Positions 2,834 to 17,134 of a stretch of DNA of 22,177 nucleotides are shown one piece after another. This DNA is from a virus. Below the pieces are notes generated by a model. That model was not told where the DNA came from. It saw only the letters and a program-made list of their open reading frames with translations, and made no database searches. How positions within the stretch are numbered: position 1 is the first letter of the stretch; each line of letters begins with the position of its first letter. Where the stretch lies: IMG/VR virus record IMGVR_UViG_3300032240_001509, positions 1 to 22,177 of that record; one strand, given 5' to 3'. Both the position numbers and the translations under genes were made by a program.

Positions 2834-3487
2834 ATGCAACAAGAACCAGTTACGTCAGCAATCAGTCTGCGTGAACGAATAGGAAATGCCATAGTACTTG
2901 CACTATGTGGATTAATAGGAATTGCCTTCCTATGTCAAATGTACCTTGTAGGGTATCATTTTTTCAAATCACCTGAGGAAAATCAACAATTAGCTAACGA
3001 AATTAGTTGGAAAATTGACGGAACATTTAAGAACAGCCCAGGTAATATCTGGTATAATGCCGCTGATCACATCTACATTGAAAAAGTTACTAATAAAGTA
3101 GTTGTTGGTAAATTAGCAGGTAATCGTAATTTAGAATTTGGTGTTAAAAACATATTAGAAGAATATGTACAAGAAAAAGGATATGATTTATCCCCAGACG
3201 CTGAAAATAAATTACGTGTTGAAATTGTATATTTAGATGTTTTAACTACAAAGAAAAATGTATCTGTATTCCATAAAGATGAACAAGAAGTTGTAATTCG
3301 TCTTAAAGGTATCTTATATAAAGATGGTATTAAAGAAAAAGAAATTATAGTTGAAGAATCATCATCTGAAATATCAATGTCAACTTTAATTGTTGATGAA
3401 GGTGGTAAATTTAATCAAACATCTTTAAGTAATGCTCTTAAAAAAGGTTGTGATCAATTAGTCACTAAACTATTAGGAGAAAAATAA
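2834..3487 (+). CDS. membrane-anchored YajG/CsgG-like protein
   Basis: A 217-residue protein with a short cytoplasmic N-terminus and one membrane helix at about residues 18-42 (ending CQMYLVGYHFF). A periplasmic alpha/beta domain follows. The domain has the layout of YajG and CsgG-type envelope proteins: a helix (FGVKNILEEYVQEKG), a strand (LRVEIVYLDVLT), further strands (QEVVIRLKGILYKDG), then a C-terminal helix (LSNALKKGCDQLVTKLLGE). The family link is inferred from this order of elements, so it is tentative. It abuts the next gene (TAAATG) and opens a block of exported proteins that continues to 11588. A role in assembling or anchoring the secreted neighbours is possible but unproven. Confidence 0.6.
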   Translation: MQQEPVTSAISLRERIGNAIVLALCGLIGIAFLCQMYLVGYHFFKSPEENQQLANEISWKIDGTFKNSPGNIWYNAADHIYIEKVTNKVVVGKLAGNRNLEFGVKNILEEYVQEKGYDLSPDAENKLRVEIVYLDVLTTKKNVSVFHKDEQEVVIRLKGILYKDGIKEKEIIVEESSSEISMSTLIVDEGGKFNQTSLSNALKKGCDQLVTKLLGEK

Positions 3488-5131
3488 ATGAAAAAATTAT
3501 TAACACTTATTGGGATATTATTAATATCTCTAACGTCACATGCACAGTTAACTGTTAATCAATCTGTAACCCCAACAACTGGATTAAAAGTAGGAGATAC
3601 AATCTCAGTAAAATATACAGTTGCTAGAGGTACAACTTTACCTCGTTATTTTTGGTTAAGATATCAATATAATAACAAGGCTTTAGCTTATGTAAATACA
3701 ACATTTTCACAAGGTACTTCATCTCAAACATTCTATACAGGTTGGAATAACTACAAATTTACATCAAACGCTGATAAATCTGCTACAAGCTTGTATGAAC
3801 AATACCAAGCATCACCTTGGTCTTATACAGTAAATACTGATTGGAATGTTGGACAACTAACAGTTCAAAGAACAGATGCTGCTATTAATGGTGATATTGC
3901 AACCCAAAAATATGTAATTAAAGATTTAGGAACTTATGATAATATCCATAAATTAGACTTATCATATTCAATTAGTGATCTTAGTGCATATATTTCACCA
4001 ATTACTACAACTACAGGGTTACTATCTTTATCAAATGTAACAGGTAATACATCTCAATTTAAAGTTAGAGTATTATTCCCGTCTGGATACACAATTACAG
4101 ATCATACAGTACAATTAATGTCTTTAAAAACAGATGGTAGTGGTTTAATTGATTGGACTAAACAACCACTTCAAGTTAAAGCATTAGATGCAAGTGGTGA
4201 AGCTATATTTACATCTGGTATTAAAGTAGGTGATAGCATAGGAGTGTTTGTAGCACCAGCAATGCAAAAAACTTGGATGAATGATATTATAACTGTATCA
4301 GATGCTTACAAAGCATTTTTAGGTATTTCACAAACTGATATTAGTGGTAATACAACATATTTTACAAGACCTAATTTAGAAAAGAAAATAGGTTTAATTA
4401 CAAAAGATAAAACAACTTTTAGTGAGTCAGATTCATATTATTTATTTGCAAACGTAATGGGTATTGATGTATCTGATAAAGCTTCAATTCCAAAATCAAC
4501 TTCAACATCAGTAAGATACTATAGTGGTTTACTAAATCAAGGATGGTTAGATGGAACACCTAATAATAATGTTAGTGTTAAGGCTTCAAACCAAACAGTT
4601 GATATGGTATTTGCTTGGGGTGGTGACTTAGATTGGTCTCATTCATCTCACCCAGATACAATTGCTAGTAGAGTATCTAGTGGTAATTATGCTAATGCAA
4701 TTAATAATGGTGAGACTATTAGAACAATGTCTTTAAGTACAATGTCTTATTCTCAACCTACTTTAGAAAAAGCTACATTAAGTTTAACTTCAACTTTAGA
4801 AAATGGAAAAGTTATATTAAGTGGTAGTTTAACTAAAGCTGATTTAGCTGGTTTAGAAGTGATTATGAATTATGATGATTCTAAATTAACATTAACTGAT
4901 GTTATATTTGATGCTGGCAATACAGTAACTAACTTCTCTACACATGATAGTGGTAGATTAACATTTGGTTCTATTGATCAGTTAAAAACAGCTAGAATTA
5001 AAGTTGGTACTCCATATAAGTTGGTATTTACAACAAAAACATCACTGACTAATACATCAGGTTTATTCTATACAGTATTAGCAGATGCAGTAGATGCAAA
5101 TGGTAAAAAGATAGAATTAGTAGTAGAATAA
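3488..5131 (+). CDS. secreted protein with degenerate dockerin-like and C-terminal cohesin-like domains
   Basis: A 547-residue protein with a signal peptide of about 20 residues ending SHAQ. The N-terminal half is Thr/Ser/Asn-rich beta sequence. At about residues 265-340 it has a segment shared with the next gene (ITVSDAYKAFLGIS... ESDSYYLFANVMG). The calcium ligands of the dockerin loop are mostly lost here: only the final Asp (D315) aligns. Residues 425-547 look like a cohesin/CBM-type beta sandwich, with GLEVIMNYDDSKLTLTDVIF matching the pattern of yDpsxLxLxxV. The stop codon overlaps the next start (TAATG). It is probably secreted or surface-exposed. The protein appears paralogous to the 5131-7017 product, which suggests a duplication. 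Confidence 0.7.
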   Translation: MKKLLTLIGILLISLTSHAQLTVNQSVTPTTGLKVGDTISVKYTVARGTTLPRYFWLRYQYNNKALAYVNTTFSQGTSSQTFYTGWNNYKFTSNADKSATSLYEQYQASPWSYTVNTDWNVGQLTVQRTDAAINGDIATQKYVIKDLGTYDNIHKLDLSYSISDLSAYISPITTTTGLLSLSNVTGNTSQFKVRVLFPSGYTITDHTVQLMSLKTDGSGLIDWTKQPLQVKALDASGEAIFTSGIKVGDSIGVFVAPAMQKTWMNDIITVSDAYKAFLGISQTDISGNTTYFTRPNLEKKIGLITKDKTTFSESDSYYLFANVMGIDVSDKASIPKSTSTSVRYYSGLLNQGWLDGTPNNNVSVKASNQTVDMVFAWGGDLDWSHSSHPDTIASRVSSGNYANAINNGETIRTMSLSTMSYSQPTLEKATLSLTSTLENGKVILSGSLTKADLAGLEVIMNYDDSKLTLTDVIFDAGNTVTNFSTHDSGRLTFGSIDQLKTARIKVGTPYKLVFTTKTSLTNTSGLFYTVLADAVDANGKKIELVVE

Positions 5132-7017
5132 TGAAAAAATTATTAGTTACACTCTTAATATTAATTAGTTCAGTAGCTTACTCTCAAGTAGGCTATTTGA
5201 ATTATACTGTTTACGATATTAGAAATAACCAAGTTGGTGCCTATGCTAACAATGCTGCTAACTTTGTAACTATGTTTGATGTTACAAAGGGTGCTAGTGT
5301 ATATGCAAGTGGAGTATCAACTGCTCAAAAAACATTATTCTTTGCTAATGGTTGGCAACCATCAGGTGTTCCTAATGGAGGTGCTTTTACTGGTATTAAG
5401 ATAACAGGATATTTCGTTCCAAAAGAAACAGGAACATATACATTTGCTATTGATGGGGATGATGGAGTTGACTTTTTATTAGATGGGAATGTTGTAACTT
5501 CATTCTATGGTGCACATGGTTTTGGAGGATATCGTTATGGTACTGTTAATTTAGTTGCTGGTAAGTCATATGCGTTTATGGCTAGATACCAAAACTGGGG
5601 TGGAGGATGGGGAATGTATTTAGTTTGGAAAAGACCATCTCAATCACAATATAGTGTTCAAGCAGATGAGGTAACTACAATTGTATCAACACCCTCAAAA
5701 CAAGCAATAGCAAATTTTAAAGTCAATACAAATTTAGATGCAACCAAATTCTCAATAGGTACCTCAGCATTAAGCTCAGTAGGTTCTATTGATATTACAA
5801 ATAATTTAGATAGTGTAAAAATAAATAATGGGTATAAAGCTAATATTACTACAGGACAAGTTGAATGGAGTTATGTAAATATATTTAATGATAATACTAC
5901 ACTTTACATTGATTTAAGACAATTTGGAAATATAGTACCCTCAACAATTAATAGTGTTTCAATTTTAGATGTGTATAGCGGACCTGTAACATTTTTGAAT
6001 AGTGATATCTATTGGGCACGATATAGTATTCCATCTACATTATCAAAAGTTACAGATGGTAGTTCTATATATAATTCAAATATACGAAATGCTGGATATA
6101 GTAATTATGCATTCACTTGTAATATAGGGTTTACAGCAAACCAAATATACAAACCACAATCAGTATCAATATCAACAACAAACAATTTAACTACATTATA
6201 TAATAGTATTGTTACAGTATCTGATGTTTATACAGCGTTCCAAGAATATTCTAATCAAGGATTATTTGGTAATCAAAGTGGTAACTCATTTACTTATGGT
6301 ATTCAATATAGTAATGCTGATGTGAATGATGATAACGTGTTTGATGAACAAGATTGTTTCTTATTATTACAGAATCTAACAGGAACTAAAACACTAGTAG
6401 ATACATTTAATTTAAATAAAACATTAAGAGTAATACCCCAATCCACTTATGATATGATTGGTAAATCTAATTGGAATACATTTACAAATCCATTAGGTAG
6501 TTCTTATACATTTGATATTAATACAGGTAAATCTACTGATACATTAAGTTTAGCTATAGCATGGAAAGGGGATGTTAATTTATCTCATTCAACTACCCCA
6601 ACATCAAATAACTACACTACAATGTCAGTAAAATCAATGAGTGTTAGTAATGAAATTAACGCTTCAATTATTACTGAAGTGGGAAATAAAATATATGCTT
6701 ACATCACTTTAGATCCACTACAACAACAAGTAGTAGGAACTCAATTTCAATTGAATTATGATAATACAGTATTAAAATTTGAAGGTGTTGAATTTAAAAC
6801 TAAAGGTAGTCCAATGAATTATGGTACTAATAAAGGTAACTATATAAACTTAGGATCATTGATTAGTGATGGTAGTACTGTATTAAACAATACTACTGAA
6901 TATAAAATAATATTTACATCAACAACCAAACTTGATAATGTATTAGGTTTAATATCAATTGGTGCTACAGATGCTGTTAATAAAACAGGCACACAATTAA
7001 AAGTTAAAGTAAATTAA
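5131..7017 (+). CDS. secreted PA14 / dockerin-like / cohesin-like protein
   Basis: A 628-residue exported protein with a signal peptide ending AYSQ at residue 19. Residues 22-175 form a PA14-type lectin domain: GYFVPKETGTYTFAIDGDDG, LLDGNVV, then LVAGKSYAFMARYQNWGGGW. Residues 397-408, DVNDDNVFDEQD, carry a full dockerin/EF-hand calcium loop (D397, N399, D401, D405, D408), followed by a helix. Residues 508-628 form a cohesin-like sandwich (VVGTQFQLNYDNTVLKFEGV). PA14 domains bind glycans; cohesin-dockerin pairs join extracellular complexes. Having both kinds on one chain allows chain-to-chain or self association, which is inference. Start and stop overlap both neighbours by one base (TAATG), so translation is probably coupled. 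Confidence 0.78.
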   Translation: MKKLLVTLLILISSVAYSQVGYLNYTVYDIRNNQVGAYANNAANFVTMFDVTKGASVYASGVSTAQKTLFFANGWQPSGVPNGGAFTGIKITGYFVPKETGTYTFAIDGDDGVDFLLDGNVVTSFYGAHGFGGYRYGTVNLVAGKSYAFMARYQNWGGGWGMYLVWKRPSQSQYSVQADEVTTIVSTPSKQAIANFKVNTNLDATKFSIGTSALSSVGSIDITNNLDSVKINNGYKANITTGQVEWSYVNIFNDNTTLYIDLRQFGNIVPSTINSVSILDVYSGPVTFLNSDIYWARYSIPSTLSKVTDGSSIYNSNIRNAGYSNYAFTCNIGFTANQIYKPQSVSISTTNNLTTLYNSIVTVSDVYTAFQEYSNQGLFGNQSGNSFTYGIQYSNADVNDDNVFDEQDCFLLLQNLTGTKTLVDTFNLNKTLRVIPQSTYDMIGKSNWNTFTNPLGSSYTFDINTGKSTDTLSLAIAWKGDVNLSHSTTPTSNNYTTMSVKSMSVSNEINASIITEVGNKIYAYITLDPLQQQVVGTQFQLNYDNTVLKFEGVEFKTKGSPMNYGTNKGNYINLGSLISDGSTVLNNTTEYKIIFTSTTKLDNVLGLISIGATDAVNKTGTQLKVKVN

Positions 7018-7355
7018 TGAAAAAATTATTAATAATATTGTTAGTATTAACTTCTTGTACTAAAGTAGAAGTTACACCTACGCCACCTCCTGTTCAAAAC
7101 ATATTTAGTGTTACTGAGTCAACTGTGTCGAATGGTGATGAGATTTATTTTGATTTAAAAACAGATGGAATTTATACTCTAACATTAATCGACGTTGCTC
7201 AAAATCAAGTAATAACAAGAGAACGAATCAATGGTAAAGCAGGACAAAATAAGTTAAAAATATACACTAGTTCACTACCAGTTAAATATTTATACTTAGT
7301 ATTAGAAGATGGGTCTAGAACTCAAATAGCTAAAACAACCATTAAAATTAATTAA
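7017..7355 (+). CDS. small lipoprotein with T9SS-tail-like beta domain
   Basis: A 112-residue protein. The signal peptide MKKLLIILLVLTSC has a lipobox with Cys14, so the product is probably a lipoprotein. A Pro/Thr-rich linker follows. The remaining ~80 residues have the strand order of Bacteroidota type IX secretion sorting domains: GDEIYFDLKTDGIYTLTLID, then VITRERI, then GQNKLKIYTSSLP, and a final KTTIKIN. In real T9SS cargo this domain lies at the end of a large protein; here it stands alone behind a lipobox. It overlaps the upstream stop codon and is followed by a second, similar protein. The resemblance is by eye. Confidence 0.62.
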   Translation: MKKLLIILLVLTSCTKVEVTPTPPPVQNIFSVTESTVSNGDEIYFDLKTDGIYTLTLIDVAQNQVITRERINGKAGQNKLKIYTSSLPVKYLYLVLEDGSRTQIAKTTIKIN

Positions 7356-7356
7356 A

Positions 7357-7737
7357 ATGAACATAATAAAAAAAATATGCTTAATAGCAGCGGTTGCAAT
7401 ACTATTTGTAGTATGTACTAAAGTAGATGTACCTGCTCCAGTCGCTCCTGAAGTTAGCGCTGATTTAAAAATAACTAATACTGTTGGTATTAAATTACAA
7501 TCGTCATTTGTTACTAGTGAAGTAGCAATGAATGTTAAAATTGATGTAGCTCAACCAGTTACTATTAAGATATTTGATATTTCAAATAGAGTGGTATCTA
7601 AAGAAACAGTGAATGTAATTGCTGGTGATAATGTTTTAAAAGTATATACAACAGCATTACCATCATCTGCATATCGAATAGGATTATTTGATGCAAATGG
7701 TAAACAATTAGGAATAACAGATTTTAACAAACTATAA
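7357..7737 (+). CDS. second small lipoprotein with T9SS-tail-like beta domain
   Basis: A 126-residue protein with an N-terminal hydrophobic signal (IAAVAILFVVC) and Cys20 as the probable lipidation site. The following TKVDVPAPVAPE parallels the TKVEVTPTPPP of its upstream neighbour, so the two are tandem paralogs. The C-terminal part matches the type IX sorting-domain pattern more closely: VTIKIFDISNRVVSKETV, then AGDNVLKVYTTALPSSAYRIGLFDANGK. It lacks the usual basic end, finishing DFNKL. One base separates the two genes, so they belong to one operon. Possible roles are surface anchoring or mimicry of host T9SS cargo. Confidence 0.62.
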   Translation: MNIIKKICLIAAVAILFVVCTKVDVPAPVAPEVSADLKITNTVGIKLQSSFVTSEVAMNVKIDVAQPVTIKIFDISNRVVSKETVNVIAGDNVLKVYTTALPSSAYRIGLFDANGKQLGITDFNKL

Positions 7738-7756: not shown

Positions 7757-8071
7757 ATGGCAGAAGAAAAAGAAGAATCAACAGGCAAATCATTTAAAAA
7801 TATTTTAATTGGTTTAGCTAGTACTATTACATTAGGTATAGGTACTTGGGTTACTACAAAATTAACTGGTGGTGAAAAAGATGAAACTCCAGTACAAACA
7901 GCAGCCCCTGTAATTAACATTCAAAACACTCAAAATCAGTCTCAAGCTGCAGGTGGTAAAACTGTAATTATTAAAGAAAAAACAGTAGAACCAGTTAAAC
8001 CAGCTCAAGCACAACCAGCTAAGCCTAAGAAAGATGGTGATGAATTTAAAGAAAAACCTGCTCAGTGGTAA
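7757..8071 (+). CDS. single-pass membrane protein with Pro/Lys-rich tail
   Basis: A 104-residue protein. After a charged start (MAEEKEESTGKSFK) there is one hydrophobic segment at about residues 14-37 (ending TWVTTKLTGG). The rest is a low-complexity, extended region rich in Gln, Asn, Ala, Pro and Lys (PVKPAQAQPAKPKK). This resembles a TonB- or spanin-like arm that crosses the periplasm, but no family is recognised. It lies between the lipoproteins and another membrane protein, in a block of envelope proteins. An envelope role is therefore likely; the exact function is unknown. Confidence 0.6.
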   Translation: MAEEKEESTGKSFKNILIGLASTITLGIGTWVTTKLTGGEKDETPVQTAAPVINIQNTQNQSQAAGGKTVIIKEKTVEPVKPAQAQPAKPKKDGDEFKEKPAQW

Positions 8072-8090: not shown

Positions 8091-8705
8091 ATGCAAGAAC
8101 AAACTCCTACAGGTTTTAGAGACCTATTAAATAAAATGATGAGCCGTAGATGGTATATTACGGCAATGGTATTAGGTGGGTTTATATTAATTATTGGTGG
8201 TATATTTACTGCTATTAGTTTACAAACACCAATGGCGGCAGCGTGGAAGGAATTATTAATGTTATTATTAGGTGCCTTTATTGGTAGTTATGGTAAAATT
8301 ATTGATTACTGGTTCTCTGATACTGATAAAGATAAGATGTTAGTTCAGAAGATGGATGAGGAAGATGGTGTTAGTTTAGGTAGTGTTAATGACATTAAAG
8401 AAAGCAATAAACCATTCACTCCATTGATTCCAGATGCATTTGTTCAAGGTGCTCAAGCAGCAAGAGAATTAGCAGTAGTTGAAAACAAACAAAATTTTGA
8501 CTTAGCTAAAGACGAACAAGAACATAGACAAATGTTAGAAGTTGATGAGCAAGAGCATGAGCAAGAAATGGAAAAATTAAAATTAGAACATGAAATAAAA
8601 GCACATAGATACTGTCAACATGAGTGGGGTGATTCCGACCATGATGGACATTTAGAGTGTCAAAAGTGTGGATTATTAAAAGAATCTTGGGACGAATCCC
8701 ACTAA
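8091..8705 (+). CDS. two-helix membrane protein with coiled coil and C-terminal zinc-ribbon-like end
   Basis: A 204-residue protein. Two probable membrane helices lie at residues 22-44 and 53-71. A long, highly charged Glu/Lys/His/Gln helix follows at about 120-172 (EQEHRQMLEVDEQEHEQEME), probably a cytoplasmic coiled coil. The end, YCQHEWGDSDHDGHLECQKC, has C175, H177, C190 and C193, consistent with a zinc ribbon. Phage proteins with a CxHxW...CxxC end are common but of unknown role. The two-helix hairpin before a holin-like gene makes a holin or lysis-control role possible. It ends just before the second copy of the 21-nt leader repeat. Confidence 0.62.
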   Translation: MQEQTPTGFRDLLNKMMSRRWYITAMVLGGFILIIGGIFTAISLQTPMAAAWKELLMLLLGAFIGSYGKIIDYWFSDTDKDKMLVQKMDEEDGVSLGSVNDIKESNKPFTPLIPDAFVQGAQAARELAVVENKQNFDLAKDEQEHRQMLEVDEQEHEQEMEKLKLEHEIKAHRYCQHEWGDSDHDGHLECQKCGLLKESWDESH

Positions 8706-8724
8706 CCATTAAAAATTAAAAGTA
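8704..8724 (+). repeat. 21-nt leader repeat, copy 2
   Basis: Identical to 2812-2832. Here the last base of the repeat is the first base of the ATG at 8724, so spacing to the start differs by two bases from copy 1. Confidence 0.7.
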
Positions 8725-8972
8725 TGACATTTAAAGAATGGGTAATTGACCTTTTTAAAGATGAAAGAGGATCAATCTCGGTAAAACCAGTAATAGCATT
8801 TATAGGATCATTGATTTTATTCGGCACCACATTTGCTAATTCATTCTCTCATCAAGACGTAGCTCCATCAGCTGATTTAGTTCACGCTTGTATGATTGTA
8901 GTATTAGCAGGAATGGGTGGTGATACAATTGATAAGTTTTCACACAAGAAAAAAGATGATTCCAAAGCTTAA
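8724..8972 (+). CDS. holin-like membrane protein
   Basis: An 82-residue protein with two hydrophobic segments: VKPVIAFIGSLILFGTTFANSF (about 20-41) and LVHACMIVVLAGMGGDTIDKF (about 52-72). A charged tail, SHKKKDDSKA, follows. The arrangement of N-terminal charged segment, TM1, a short loop with Pro, TM2 ending in a Gly-rich stretch and DKF, and a Lys-rich tail is common among small phage holins. Holins form the inner-membrane holes that trigger lysis. The NlpC/P60 hydrolase is 3.4 kb downstream, so this is not a compact lysis cassette. A strong terminator follows directly. Confidence 0.6.
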   Translation: MTFKEWVIDLFKDERGSISVKPVIAFIGSLILFGTTFANSFSHQDVAPSADLVHACMIVVLAGMGGDTIDKFSHKKKDDSKA

Positions 8973-9019: not shown

Positions 9020-9742
9020 ATGAAAGCATTATTAATATTATTATCAATGTGCACTTTGTTCTTTTACAAGTGCAATGGTCAAACTATAGGCTCAACAAAA
9101 ACCGAGCAGTTCAAAGCATCCTTCGAAACCAAAACAGACATTAGTCAATATTTAAATTATGAAGGACCAACAATACCAATTCAGATTCTCAAATGCGGTA
9201 TTGGTGATGAAGTTTATGAGCAATATCCTGAACTCAAGGAAAAGAAAGTGGGTTTGGGTGTGGCTAACATCACGTTGGAATATCTTGAAAATCTTAACCG
9301 ATTTACATTTACAGAAGATAAAACTGAAATTAAAAACAGAATGGTTAAACAATTTCAGGCGTCTCAAGCAGGTATTTCTCAAGATAAACTTGATGGACGT
9401 GGTAAAATCCGTTTGGCACACTATTTTGTTGAAATTGAAGTATATGATTGGAGTGTAAGTGAAGATGAAGAAGTAAATTTAAAAGATGGAGTTAAAAATA
9501 CAATGGTAACTCGTTTAGGTTTACAAGTACGTTTTACAGATGCTGAAACAGGAGAAATTATAGCAGCATCAGGTTTAGGTGAAGCTAAAACAACAAGAGA
9601 ATTAACATTATTATCTGACGCAACAATAGACCCTGTTAAATTTAATCAATCAACAGTTAGTATTGCAACTAAAAAAGCATTAGATATTGCTTGTGCTCGT
9701 ATATTACCTCGTATGATTAAAAAGGGTGTATTTAAAAATTAA
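9020..9742 (+). CDS. CsgG-family outer-membrane secretion protein
   Basis: A 240-residue exported protein; the signal sequence ends near CNGQ at residue 21. The body follows the CsgG/HfaB pattern: a strand plus helix (VGLGVANITLEYLENLNRFT, 77-96), FQASQAG (112-118), HYFVEIEVYDWSVS (134-147, equivalent to the gAdylvtGsIt strand), then LGLQVRFTDAETGEI (166-180), which matches the family hallmark of vdxxTGEIl. The helix STVSIATKKALDIACARI closes the domain. CsgG forms a nonameric outer-membrane channel that exports curli subunits. This copy is shorter than E. coli CsgG, and the membrane-spanning strands are not certain. It follows a strong terminator, starts a new transcription unit, and is followed by a lipoprotein and a low-complexity secreted protein. 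Confidence 0.78.
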   Translation: MKALLILLSMCTLFFYKCNGQTIGSTKTEQFKASFETKTDISQYLNYEGPTIPIQILKCGIGDEVYEQYPELKEKKVGLGVANITLEYLENLNRFTFTEDKTEIKNRMVKQFQASQAGISQDKLDGRGKIRLAHYFVEIEVYDWSVSEDEEVNLKDGVKNTMVTRLGLQVRFTDAETGEIIAASGLGEAKTTRELTLLSDATIDPVKFNQSTVSIATKKALDIACARILPRMIKKGVFKN

Positions 9743-9747
9743 TTAAA

Positions 9748-10119
9748 ATGGGAACAGCAGCAAAGAAAAAACGTCCTATGAGAAGTAGGAGATCCGGAGT
9801 AAAGAAGTTAAATTTAGTAAAATCAAATTTATCAATATTGAAAAAGTTAGTAGCGTTATTTGTCTTAGTATTATTATTTAATGCTTGTACACCTGTTAGA
9901 ATTGTAGAAACAACATCTATTGATAGTACAGGTAAACAAATTAAAGTAAAAACTAAATATTATCAACAAACTGATGGATACTCAGTTCAACCTGATATTC
10001 ATATAATTACAACTACTCCTTTATTTTATAATAGAGTTCCAATCATAATTCCAACATATAGAGTTCCTGTTATTAGAGGATACCAACGTAATTCATTTGG
10101 ATTTAGACATAGACATTAA
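9748..10119 (+). CDS. putative lipoprotein with basic N-terminus
   Basis: A 123-residue protein. The first 30 residues are very basic (KKKRPMRSRRSGVKK), then a hydrophobic helix ends in LVLLFNAC, giving a relaxed lipobox with Cys47. The mature part begins TPVRIVETTSIDSTGKQIKV, a short beta-rich segment, and ends in Arg/Tyr/Phe/His-rich sequence (GYQRNSFGFRHRH). The family is not recognised. It lies 6 bases after the CsgG-like gene and 3 bases before the low-complexity gene, so it is probably part of the same export unit. A CsgE- or CsgF-like accessory role is conceivable, but no sequence feature shows it. Confidence 0.6.
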   Translation: MGTAAKKKRPMRSRRSGVKKLNLVKSNLSILKKLVALFVLVLLFNACTPVRIVETTSIDSTGKQIKVKTKYYQQTDGYSVQPDIHIITTTPLFYNRVPIIIPTYRVPVIRGYQRNSFGFRHRH

Positions 10120-10121
10120 TA

Positions 10122-11588
10122 ATGAAAAAATGGATAATAAATTCATTAATAATGGTTATGATTCTATTCGCTACAAAAGCGAATGGACAGGTCTATACTC
10201 AAACATTCATTGATAAATGTTCAGGTCAAGTTAAAATTGCTACCACAACCATGGTAAATGGAAATGCTGTGGTATCATTTTATGGACAAATTAAAACATT
10301 TACTCCATTTCAAGTAGCAAATGGAGAATTACAAGCATGGCTTCAGGCAACTTATGCTTACTATAATACATTAACATGTCCAGTAGCAACACCAGTAGTA
10401 ACTCAAACCGTCCAAAATACAGTATCACAAGCAGCAGCACAAGCCGCTTCATCAGCAGCAAGTTCAGCAGCTTCATCAGCAGCATCCTCAGCAGCATCAA
10501 ATGCAGCAAGTGGGGCAGCAAGTGGGGCAGCTTCTGGAGCCGCTTCAGGCGCCGCTTCAGGCGCAGCCTCAGGAGCAGCAAGTGGAGCAGCATCGAATGG
10601 TGCTTCCACATCTTCGGGTGGATCTGTATCGCAATCATCATCGGGTTCATCATCATCGTCTTCTTCATCTTCATCTTCCTCTTCTGGATCTTCCTCATCA
10701 TCAGGCTCAAGTGGGGAGAGCAAAAGCGGAAGCAGCAGTTCAAACAGCGAATCAAAAACAGAGAGCAAAACAGAATCTAAATCTGAATCTAAGTCTGAAA
10801 GTAAGAGTGAGGAAAAAAAAGAGGAAACTAAATCAGAATCTAAAGAGGAAAAGAAATCTGATGAGAAAAAAGAGGAAAAGAAAGAGGAAAAAAAGGAAGA
10901 AAAGAAAGAGGAGAAGAAGGAAGAGAAAAAACAAGTTAAAATGAATCCTATAATGTTAGGATCTGATTTAACTGTAGGACAAAACGCCACTGGTGGTTTT
11001 ACTCCTGTAATATCACTAAGTATGTCTCAAGCGTCAGTTACAGGTGAATCGAGTTGGGGTGTAAGTAGCATGATATGGGCCGATTTAAAATCGATAGCAA
11101 TATCAGCTAATAAAAGCGAAATGGTATTCAAAAACGGCGCTTTATCCGCCATTAAAGCGTATTCTTACACCGTTGCTAATGTAGCTGGTGTTAATATGAC
11201 TTTTGGTGGTTATACTTGGGTTAAACCACATCCAAAATTGGGTACTTATGGTTATAACTTATCAGTTATTAATATTAAGTTAAAAGAAAGTAATGGGTAT
11301 TCATATTCAATGATGTCTTCAACAACAGCATTTTGGACTAAACCCTATCAAATAAGTAGAAAATCAACTTTATCTCCGGGGGTCTTTCTGATGGCTTCGC
11401 CCTACGCTTACAACAGCAAATCGGGAAGCTCCTGGAACTATAATGTAATGGGTTTGGTGGGCACAGGATATAGTTTTAAATTGAGTAAAAGATTTGGATT
11501 TAACATTGATTATAAGGCTAGTGTATCAACAGTACCGGGTTCACCAATACTAAGTTTCTTTCTAATAGGATCAAGACTTCAACTATAA
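10122..11588 (+). CDS. secreted low-complexity (Ala-Ser-Gly / Ser / Lys-Glu) protein with probable beta-barrel C-terminus
   Basis: A 488-residue exported protein; the signal sequence ends ATKANGQ at 23. Residues 24-88 are a small folded domain with two Cys (C33, C86). Residues 104-158 are an (A)(A)(S/G)-type repeat. Residues 159-200 are nearly pure Ser with Gly. Residues 201-266 move from Ser-Glu-Lys to repeated KKEE. Residues 270-488 are an amphipathic beta domain with aromatic-rich strands (GVNMTFGGYTWV; FGFNIDYKASVS) and a final FFLIGSRLQL, typical of outer-membrane barrels. The repeat zone is locally G/C- and purine-rich, unlike neighbouring genes. It sits directly downstream of the CsgG-like and lipoprotein genes. 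A surface-exposed flexible spacer on a barrel anchor is the simplest reading. Confidence 0.75.
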   Translation: MKKWIINSLIMVMILFATKANGQVYTQTFIDKCSGQVKIATTTMVNGNAVVSFYGQIKTFTPFQVANGELQAWLQATYAYYNTLTCPVATPVVTQTVQNTVSQAAAQAASSAASSAASSAASSAASNAASGAASGAASGAASGAASGAASGAASGAASNGASTSSGGSVSQSSSGSSSSSSSSSSSSSGSSSSSGSSGESKSGSSSSNSESKTESKTESKSESKSESKSEEKKEETKSESKEEKKSDEKKEEKKEEKKEEKKEEKKEEKKQVKMNPIMLGSDLTVGQNATGGFTPVISLSMSQASVTGESSWGVSSMIWADLKSIAISANKSEMVFKNGALSAIKAYSYTVANVAGVNMTFGGYTWVKPHPKLGTYGYNLSVINIKLKESNGYSYSMMSSTTAFWTKPYQISRKSTLSPGVFLMASPYAYNSKSGSSWNYNVMGLVGTGYSFKLSKRFGFNIDYKASVSTVPGSPILSFFLIGSRLQL

Positions 11589-11610
11589 GGTTGGTTCGGT
11601 CAAAACCAGA

Positions 11611-11625
11611 TTGTATATTTACAAT
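11611..11625 (+). promoter_or_regulatory. TATATTTA promoter box inside an inverted repeat
   Basis: TTGTATATTTACAA occurs here and again at 20089-20102. The TATATTTA box (11614-11621) lies inside the inverted repeat TTGTA/TACAA. It precedes the small lipoprotein gene at 11653. Confidence 0.55.
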
Positions 11626-11652
11626 AATTAATTAATAAAAAAACAAACAAAG

Positions 11653-11820
11653 ATGAAAAAAGTATTTGCAATCGTAGCAATGGCTACATTAGCAGCTTGT
11701 GGCGGTAGCGCTTCAACAGAAGTTAAAACTGATTCAACAGCAGTAACAACAGATTCAGCAACAATTTGCGCAGATTCAACAGCAGCAGCTATAGCAGCTG
11801 ATACTGCAGCTAAAAAGTAA
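11653..11820 (+). CDS. tiny Ala/Thr/Asp-rich lipoprotein (55 aa)
   Basis: The ATG at 11653 follows an A-rich leader. The product begins MKKVFAIVAMATLAACGGSA, a textbook lipoprotein signal with LAAC and Cys16. The 39-residue mature part has repeating DST/DSA units (TDSTAVTTDSATICADSTAA) and ends ADTAAKK. Such short Asp/Thr/Ala-rich lipoproteins are common in Bacteroidota genomes and have no known function. The gene has its own promoter-like box upstream and a hairpin directly downstream, so it forms a monocistronic unit and may be highly expressed. Confidence 0.75.
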   Translation: MKKVFAIVAMATLAACGGSASTEVKTDSTAVTTDSATICADSTAAAIAADTAAKK

Positions 11821-11877: not shown

Positions 11878-12396
11878 ATGTACAAAATAAAACGATTCTT
11901 TAAACGATTTTATAATTTATATCGTTGGTTACCTATTATCTGGAAAGATCAAGATTGGGATCATAGTTATATATTTGAAATACTTAAATTCAAATTAAAG
12001 AATCAAGCAGGATATATTGGACATCATGATCGTCACTTATCAGCTAAACGTGATGCTGAGATAATGATGTTATGTGTTAGATTAATGGATAAGGTTCAAA
12101 ATGGGTATTATGATCATGAGTGGAGCAAATATTATAAATCAGAATCTATATTTACACCAAGTGAGGAATATCCAGGCAGTTATAATTGGGATGAAAAAGA
12201 AATATCTGAGAAATTTGATAATTATTTTATAAAATATCCACGCATTTACATTGCTGTTGATAATATGAACAAACCTCCATTCCACAAAGATACTAAATTA
12301 GGAATGGCTATTAATATAGGATTTATAAATCACATACGAGCTAAAAAATTATTATTTAAAATACTAGAAGAAAATATTGAAAGATGGTGGGATTAA
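11878..12396 (+). CDS. hypothetical phage protein (172 aa)
   Basis: The ATG at 11878 gives MYKIKRFFKRFYNLYRWLPI. The frame extends upstream with a TTG, but that would run through the terminator hairpin, so the ATG is preferred. The start is basic and aromatic. The middle part (GHHDRHLSAKRDAEIMMLCVRLMDKVQNGYY) is helical with many His and Asp residues. The pattern of basic aromatic start, WKDQDWDHSYIFEILKFKL and KRDAEIM is typical of an unnamed phage family. No catalytic motif is certain and no membrane segment is clear. The end overlaps the NlpC/P60 gene by 13 bases, so it is probably co-expressed with it. Confidence 0.65.
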   Translation: MYKIKRFFKRFYNLYRWLPIIWKDQDWDHSYIFEILKFKLKNQAGYIGHHDRHLSAKRDAEIMMLCVRLMDKVQNGYYDHEWSKYYKSESIFTPSEEYPGSYNWDEKEISEKFDNYFIKYPRIYIAVDNMNKPPFHKDTKLGMAINIGFINHIRAKKLLFKILEENIERWWD

Positions 12397-16492: not shown

Positions 16493-17134
16493 ATGAAAAA
16501 AGTTTTATTATTAATTACTATCCTAGCATTCTTTGCTTTAGGTGGTAAAGCACAAGATGTAGTTACATTAACTCATAAAGCGTATACAACACATTACAGC
16601 AAGTCAAAACATTACCCAGTAATGGTTGAATGGTGGATTACTAAAGCCGGATTAACTTGTACTGATAAAGTTAAACGTGGTGATAAATTCATTCCAGACC
16701 CATTATTACCTAATGAAACTGACTTACAATCAGATTATACAGGTGCTGGGTTTGATCGTGGTCATAACATGCCTGCAGCGGATGCTGTTTGTGATCAAGT
16801 AGCAAATGAGGAATCATTTTATTTTAGTAACATGACTGCTCAATACCCTTCACTTAATCGTGGTGATTGGAAAGCATTAGAAACATTAGCTCGCAACACA
16901 GCATTAGAACAAGACTCAGTTAAAGTATGGTGTGGGTCCGTTGGTGTTGAGAAGAAAATAGGTACAACGTCAGTACCGACTCAATGTTGGAAGGTAATTT
17001 ATATTGTTAAAACAAAAGAATATATGGCTTTCGTGTTTGATAATAACACTACTAAAGCAGATGGTATTGATAATAATAAAGTACAACTAGCTGATGTTGA
17101 AAAACTAACTGGATTTAAGTTTAAGGCAAAGTAA
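16493..17134 (+). CDS. exported DNA/RNA non-specific endonuclease (DRGH family)
   Basis: A 213-residue protein with a signal peptide ending GGKAQ at residue 21. The beta-beta-alpha metal nuclease motif is FDRGHNMPAAD, with D88, R89, G90 and general-base H91. FSNMTAQYPSLNRGDW supplies Asn122, the expected Mg ligand, and a conserved Trp. This is the Serratia nuclease/EndoG (NUC1) family, which cuts DNA and RNA without sequence preference. Export is striking for a phage enzyme: it would act in the periplasm or outside, away from the phage's own genome. Possible uses are digestion of incoming rival DNA, of extracellular DNA, or of nucleic acid released at lysis. It stands alone with a promoter-like box on each side. 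Confidence 0.88.
   Translation: MKKVLLLITILAFFALGGKAQDVVTLTHKAYTTHYSKSKHYPVMVEWWITKAGLTCTDKVKRGDKFIPDPLLPNETDLQSDYTGAGFDRGHNMPAADAVCDQVANEESFYFSNMTAQYPSLNRGDWKALETLARNTALEQDSVKVWCGSVGVEKKIGTTSVPTQCWKVIYIVKTKEYMAFVFDNNTTKADGIDNNKVQLADVEKLTGFKFKAK

Follow-up and report, generated by a model that had tools for sequence, protein, structure and literature searches.

CsgG is the secretion channel for curli. Nine copies of this lipoprotein make up a barrel of 36 strands (PMC7304575), so that each subunit supplies four strands. Phage-encoded CsgG is already known from Pelagibacter phage HTVC008M and Methylophilales phage Melnitz (PMC7029224, PMC9004378), and a function in lysis has been put forward for the CsgGF proteins of the latter (PMC9004378). 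A second way of using the same superfamily fold is represented by PelC, twelve copies of which form a ring in the periplasm, seated on PelB as a separate barrel (PMC12141448).

We analyzed a stretch of 22,177 nucleotides (referred to as the window) from the IMG/VR virus record IMGVR_UViG_3300032240_001509. An initial annotation of this sequence had proposed a gene for a CsgG-family channel protein, followed by genes for a lipoprotein and a low-complexity secreted protein, a layout reminiscent of a channel with accessory and cargo. The open reading frame of the first gene has exactly the limits assigned to it, and the TGEI hallmark read from its sequence is present as residues 166-180 (LGLQVRFTDAETGEI) of the product. 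Features of the gene and its neighbours are summarized in Table 1.

Table 1. Genes of the cassette region in the window
Position	Strand	Predicted product	Remarks
2834..3487	+	Second, shorter CsgG-like protein, 217 aa	N-terminal TM; hhalign match to the family of the 9020..9742 protein
3488..5131	+	Secreted surface-family protein	Clusters with family 0; cohesin-like stretches by eye; no Pfam match of its own
5131..7017	+	Secreted PA14-domain protein, surface-family cluster	PF07691 PA14, E 4.6e-13
7017..7355	+	Small lipoprotein, surface-family cluster	Lipobox LTSC read from sequence
7357..7737	+	Small lipoprotein, weak likeness to type IX sorting tail	TIGR04183, E 0.011, below cut-off
7757..8071	+	Small one-TM protein, Q/P/K-rich tail, C-terminal Trp	Usually just upstream of the CsgG-fold gene
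8091..8705	+	Membrane protein, charged tail at the C-terminus, like a holin in appearance alone	86 loci; no Pfam match above cut-off, PHROGs of unknown function only
8724..8972	+	Small membrane protein, like a holin in appearance alone	96 loci; no Pfam or PHROG match
9020..9742	+	CsgG-fold protein (gene under study), 240 aa	ATG start; hydrophobic signal sequence
9748..10119	+	Lipoprotein, between CsgG-fold and barrel genes	Family in 18/162 loci only
10122..11588	+	Signal peptide, N-terminal domain, linker, C-terminal 12-stranded outer-membrane beta-barrel	AlphaFold2, Foldseek, VIA

Distribution and conservation of the CsgG-fold gene

Searches of IMG/VR revealed 473 relatives of the CsgG-fold protein. 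Its one cultivated relative is KNV73_gp017 of Flavobacterium phage immuto (complete genome), which shares 52% identity and is annotated only as hypothetical. The gene is under strong purifying selection, with dN/dS values of 0.04-0.11 in the nine non-saturated of 11 comparisons with IMG/VR relatives. Given the number of relatives, the identity with the immuto protein and these dN/dS values, it is not a chance reading frame.

A bacterial origin of the family was sought. One scan, covering 84,980 species genomes of bacteria and archaea, yielded just two MAG contigs that encode relatives, and a clear relative was present in one of 299 Flavobacteriaceae genomes, the same MAG as the match of the genome scan. 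The family is essentially an almost purely viral one, and the source of the window is a phage of Bacteroidota bacteria.

Predicted fold

The protein gave no usable match in searches of Pfam, NCBIfam, PHROGs and PDB sequences; matches to DUF6708, DUF7710 and proline-tRNA ligase were at chance level. The CsgG profile PF03783 remained silent at E values up to 10 for the contig and 18 members of the family, in a search whose controls (E. coli and others) were detected.

An AlphaFold2 model built from 45 diverse relatives (pLDDT 75.7, pTM 0.69) was compared with 350,542 PDB chains using Foldseek. Ranks 1-19 were all occupied by CsgG (best E 4e-8), and PelC came next (5t0z, E 3.6e-6). VIA placed CsgG 4uv2 at Z 12.2 (rmsd 4.3 over 155), with CsgG at Z 11-12 across residues 36-240, while other proteins scored lower: Cj1090c 10.8, PelC 9.1, LptE 8.9 and TraT (9fsm) 7.3. 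The top viral match in BFVD was a protein of an uncultured phage annotated as CsgG (E 9e-8). The CsgG alpha/beta core proposed from the sequence is thus recovered in the predicted fold.

Profile comparison with true flavobacterial and curli CsgG gave no significant kinship (hhalign 0.08). Among the 299 Flavobacteriaceae genomes, the family profile weakly detected one stretch (L190, E 0.028), which is itself assigned to the CsgG family by PF03783 (E 1.2e-29), as a divergent member, and aligns colinearly with the phage family (hhalign E 7e-4). These links offer weak, independent sequence support for kinship with CsgG. Judged by its model, the product is a CsgG-fold protein, though not one that can be classified as CsgG by sequence.

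Comparison with known CsgG-fold systems

Flavobacterial CsgG has 45-46% identity to its counterparts in HTVC008M and Melnitz, and Brevundimonas phages give weak matches to it; the same search with flavobacterial CsgG that finds HTVC008M and Melnitz does not retrieve the family described here. With CsgG, including that of these two phages, the protein shares the predicted alpha/beta core, the order of helices and strands over residues 36-240, the TGEI strand and its phage-borne state. It differs in lacking a PF03783 match and a lipobox, in its shorter hairpin segments, and in having no CsgF, CsgE or curlin beside it. The PelC/PelB pair resembles the phage proteins in the superfamily fold, in the separate encoding of the putative partner barrel and probably in a CsgG-type core that has no membrane strands of its own. 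However, PelC is lipidated and PelB forms a barrel of 16 strands, whereas the phage barrel is predicted to have 12 and is preceded by a low-complexity linker. TraT shares the general fold, but the match is much weaker than that of CsgG, and lipidation of TraT is not common to both.

The segments corresponding to the membrane hairpins were measured between the YD, LGLQ and TGEI strand anchors. The equivalent of the first hairpin (TM1) has 22 residues, compared with 25 in curli CsgG, and twice the charged fraction (0.33 vs 0.16). That of the second hairpin (TM2) is 8 residues shorter (39 vs 47). The monomer model contains one long, TM1-like hairpin (135-153/157-174), and the TM2 region is without a hairpin. 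No lipobox was found in the protein, and lipobox-like sequences occur in 29 of 162 relatives. Neither CsgE, CsgF nor curlin repeats were detected in the window or the immuto record at E values up to 1, in a search with a positive E. coli control. Therefore, of the proposed CsgG-family channel only the CsgG core is retained, and on the model; the channel is not supported, given the silence of PF03783, the short TM2 equivalent and the charged TM1 equivalent. Because the hairpin segments are short and the first is charged, most members have no lipobox, and CsgE, CsgF and curlin are missing, it is unlikely that the protein forms a pore by itself.

Lipoprotein and predicted barrel downstream of the CsgG-fold gene

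The gene directly downstream encodes a lipoprotein, as had been noticed. The product of the following gene (488 aa) carries a small conserved domain after the signal peptide and then a low-complexity linker, which is Ala/Ser-rich at first and Lys/Glu-rich thereafter. In an AlphaFold2 model from 46 relatives, residues ~277-488 form a domain of about 12 beta-strands (278-486), mostly at pLDDT 75-89; the linker (pLDDT under 50) and the helices are of low confidence. The best Foldseek match of the barrel was FapF (8e-6), while VIA returned mostly 12-stranded outer-membrane barrels, including NalP (Z 23.8), KdgM (20.3) and FapF (20.0). The C-terminus is predicted to be a closed 12-stranded outer-membrane barrel, and since several unrelated barrels tie in VIA, this is the sole claim made for it.

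FapF and the autotransporters NalP and EspP likewise have a C-terminal 12-stranded barrel behind a helical or unstructured exported segment, but this is a likeness of fold, at ~8% identity, that is generic to 12-stranded barrels. A link to amyloid through FapF was dropped, as unrelated 12-stranded barrels equal or outrank it in VIA. The earlier description of a low-complexity secreted protein holds for the signal peptide and the middle of this product, but its C-terminal barrel had gone unrecognized. The idea that the protein is exported as amyloid-like cargo was given up in view of the predicted barrel. The suggested layout of accessory and cargo is wrong in detail: the presumed cargo is itself a predicted barrel, and the lipoprotein does not belong to the core of the cassette.

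A conserved cassette in two types of phages

All open reading frames of 162 loci were clustered, and occurrences were counted for window-type and immuto-type loci. The gene order of the cassette is: secreted proteins, small TM protein, (membrane proteins), CsgG-fold protein, (variable gene) and barrel. In immuto-type loci a short CsgG-like gene stands at the end, after the barrel gene. The barrel gene lies downstream of the CsgG-fold gene in 134 of 138 loci with enough flanking sequence (67/71 window-type and 67/67 immuto-type), and secreted proteins are encoded upstream in 124 of 125 loci (58/59 and 66/66, respectively). The small TM protein precedes the CsgG-fold gene in 55/59 window-type and 66/66 immuto-type loci. 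Where the barrel gene comes next in immuto-type loci, the two genes overlap or abut in 32 of 41 cases. The gene families on either side are for the most part not shared by the two types of phages, so it is the cassette that is conserved. In immuto it occupies 10-16 kb, and the holin and one endolysin are annotated ~30 kb farther on, at 44 kb; a second annotated endolysin gene lies at 22 kb and the tail genes follow after 81 kb.

The short CsgG-like family is homologous to the longer one (hhalign E 8.6e-9, probability 95.7%), and a C-terminal FNxxT...AxKKA motif is common to both. Relatives of the window's short protein have ~150 aa and a signal peptide. The gene is present in 92 loci, including 67/67 of the immuto type. 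The window's copy matches PF03923 (Lipoprotein_16) just below the cut-off (E 7.9e-5), and one short paralogue shows a weak match to the TraT Pfam family (E 2.8e-4). In the small TM protein, Trp is the last residue in 141 of 141 family members, although the tail is otherwise variable, which suggests that this residue may be a docking end.

Among 62 scanned members of the secreted surface family, the domains found were Cohesin (23), Lectin_C (15), Por_Secre_tail (14), PA14 (6) and dockerin (6). The type IX sorting domain (PF18962/TIGR04183) was identified in 14/62 members and in immuto gp015; the window's own copies are sub-threshold. Positions 10946-11674 of locus L002, together with these 14 members, provide examples of secreted phage cohesin proteins that bear a type IX sorting tail. 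As judged from such signals, the phages apparently use the type IX system of the host for cohesin proteins.

Several other genes were noted around the cassette. A tmRNA gene (2351-2759; Rfam RF00023, 78 bits; tag ANEYAVAA) lies between the tRNA genes and the cassette. Positions 1438-1552 (115 bases) match the tRNA family (34.8 bits) and were not called by ARAGORN; the sequence may be a tRNA that carries an insert or has a long variable arm. Positions 16493-17134 encode a secreted DNA/RNA non-specific endonuclease with a signal peptide (PF01223, E 1e-40), whose family recurs near the cassette in 32 loci. An exported 151-aa protein with a metallopeptidase-like VHESKH motif is encoded on the minus strand of locus L139 (5115-5570). 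It has no Pfam match and occurs near the cassette in 44 loci.

Proposed role and alternative explanations

We propose that the CsgG-fold protein is an exported subunit that probably belongs to a ring or collar in the periplasm, beneath the outer membrane, and that would work with the separate 12-stranded barrel and the second, shorter CsgG-like subunit, while the inner-membrane protein with the C-terminal Trp may tether the complex. Three compartments would thereby be occupied: the inner membrane (TM protein), the periplasm (two CsgG-fold proteins), and the outer membrane and surface (barrel and lectin/cohesin proteins). The likely task during infection would be to pass or anchor the phage's own secreted lectin, cohesin and PA14 proteins at the cell surface. 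Export or anchoring of phage surface proteins by such a complex is the reading that we favour, at a probability of about 0.38, because PelC shows that a ring of this fold can be seated on a separate barrel (PMC12141448). We infer the assembly into a ring, the contacts among the parts, the cargo and the gain for the phage (adhesion, or keeping other phages out). The reading is weakened by the many secreted proteins that carry host type IX signals and would need no phage exporter; in addition, neighbouring genes need not encode proteins that touch, the barrel could be an autonomous autotransporter-like protein, and lysis genes adjoin the cassette in some loci. More tentative is the fuller proposal of a new trans-envelope machine, in which two CsgG-fold subunits, the 12-stranded barrel and the Trp-ended tether would install lectin and cohesin proteins on infected Bacteroidota cells.

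In a different explanation, lysis would have an outer-membrane-disrupting arm that is made up of the CsgG-fold proteins, the barrel and the tethered TM protein and does the job of a spanin in Bacteroidota hosts. Holin-like membrane genes adjoin the CsgG-fold gene in many loci, a GH19 endolysin gene lies inside the locus in 34/57 immuto-type and 10/50 window-type cases, an NlpC/P60 gene is located at 12384 of the window, and the Melnitz proposal (PMC9004378) points the same way. We nevertheless regard this as rather unlikely: the secreted lectin/cohesin proteins have no obvious place in it, the holin-like genes match no holin family, and in immuto the cassette is distant from the annotated holin and one of the endolysins. 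The same genome bears on the idea that the exported proteins ride on the virion as adhesins or baseplate parts, since there the tail genes, too, lie at a distance from the cassette. For particle adhesins, lectin, PA14 and Laminin_G domains would be fitting, but signal peptides and lipoboxes direct these proteins out of the cytoplasm, where virions are assembled, and this appears very improbable.

TraT acts in surface exclusion during conjugation, and the cassette could by analogy encode a complex in the outer membrane that keeps other phages from adsorbing or their DNA from entering. The general fold common to TraT and the CsgG-fold protein, and the TraT match of one short paralogue, are consistent with superinfection exclusion, as are surface lectins and lipoproteins that could mask receptors. 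TraT is, however, one example of a general fold that numerous proteins share, and its match lies far behind that of CsgG; we consider exclusion unlikely. Still less probable is a true CsgG-type pore that would use its own short membrane hairpins to export an unrecognized amyloid or fibre subunit. The one long hairpin of the model, similar to TM1 of CsgG, and the comparably short segments of the CsgG-family member L190 would fit this explanation; the reduced, hairpin-less TM2 equivalent, the charge of the TM1 equivalent and the missing curli partners argue against it.

Significance for phages of Bacteroidota

No report of the family or the cassette was found in the literature searched (open-licence PMC papers), and a paper on Baltic flavophages holds no data on the cassette genes; both the lineage and the cassette appear to be undescribed. 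The role of the CsgG reported from pelagiphages and Melnitz is not agreed. The family described here constitutes a second, divergent CsgG-fold lineage, present in hundreds of contigs that have a cultivated Flavobacterium phage as a relative, and offers a case in which the question of why phages build outer-membrane structures can be approached genetically and biochemically. The nearly constant position of the CsgG-fold gene beside genes for a barrel and secreted sticky proteins suggests a multi-part envelope device built by the phage, and the lineage may prove relevant to lysis, to the exclusion of superinfecting phages or to adhesion in Bacteroidota.
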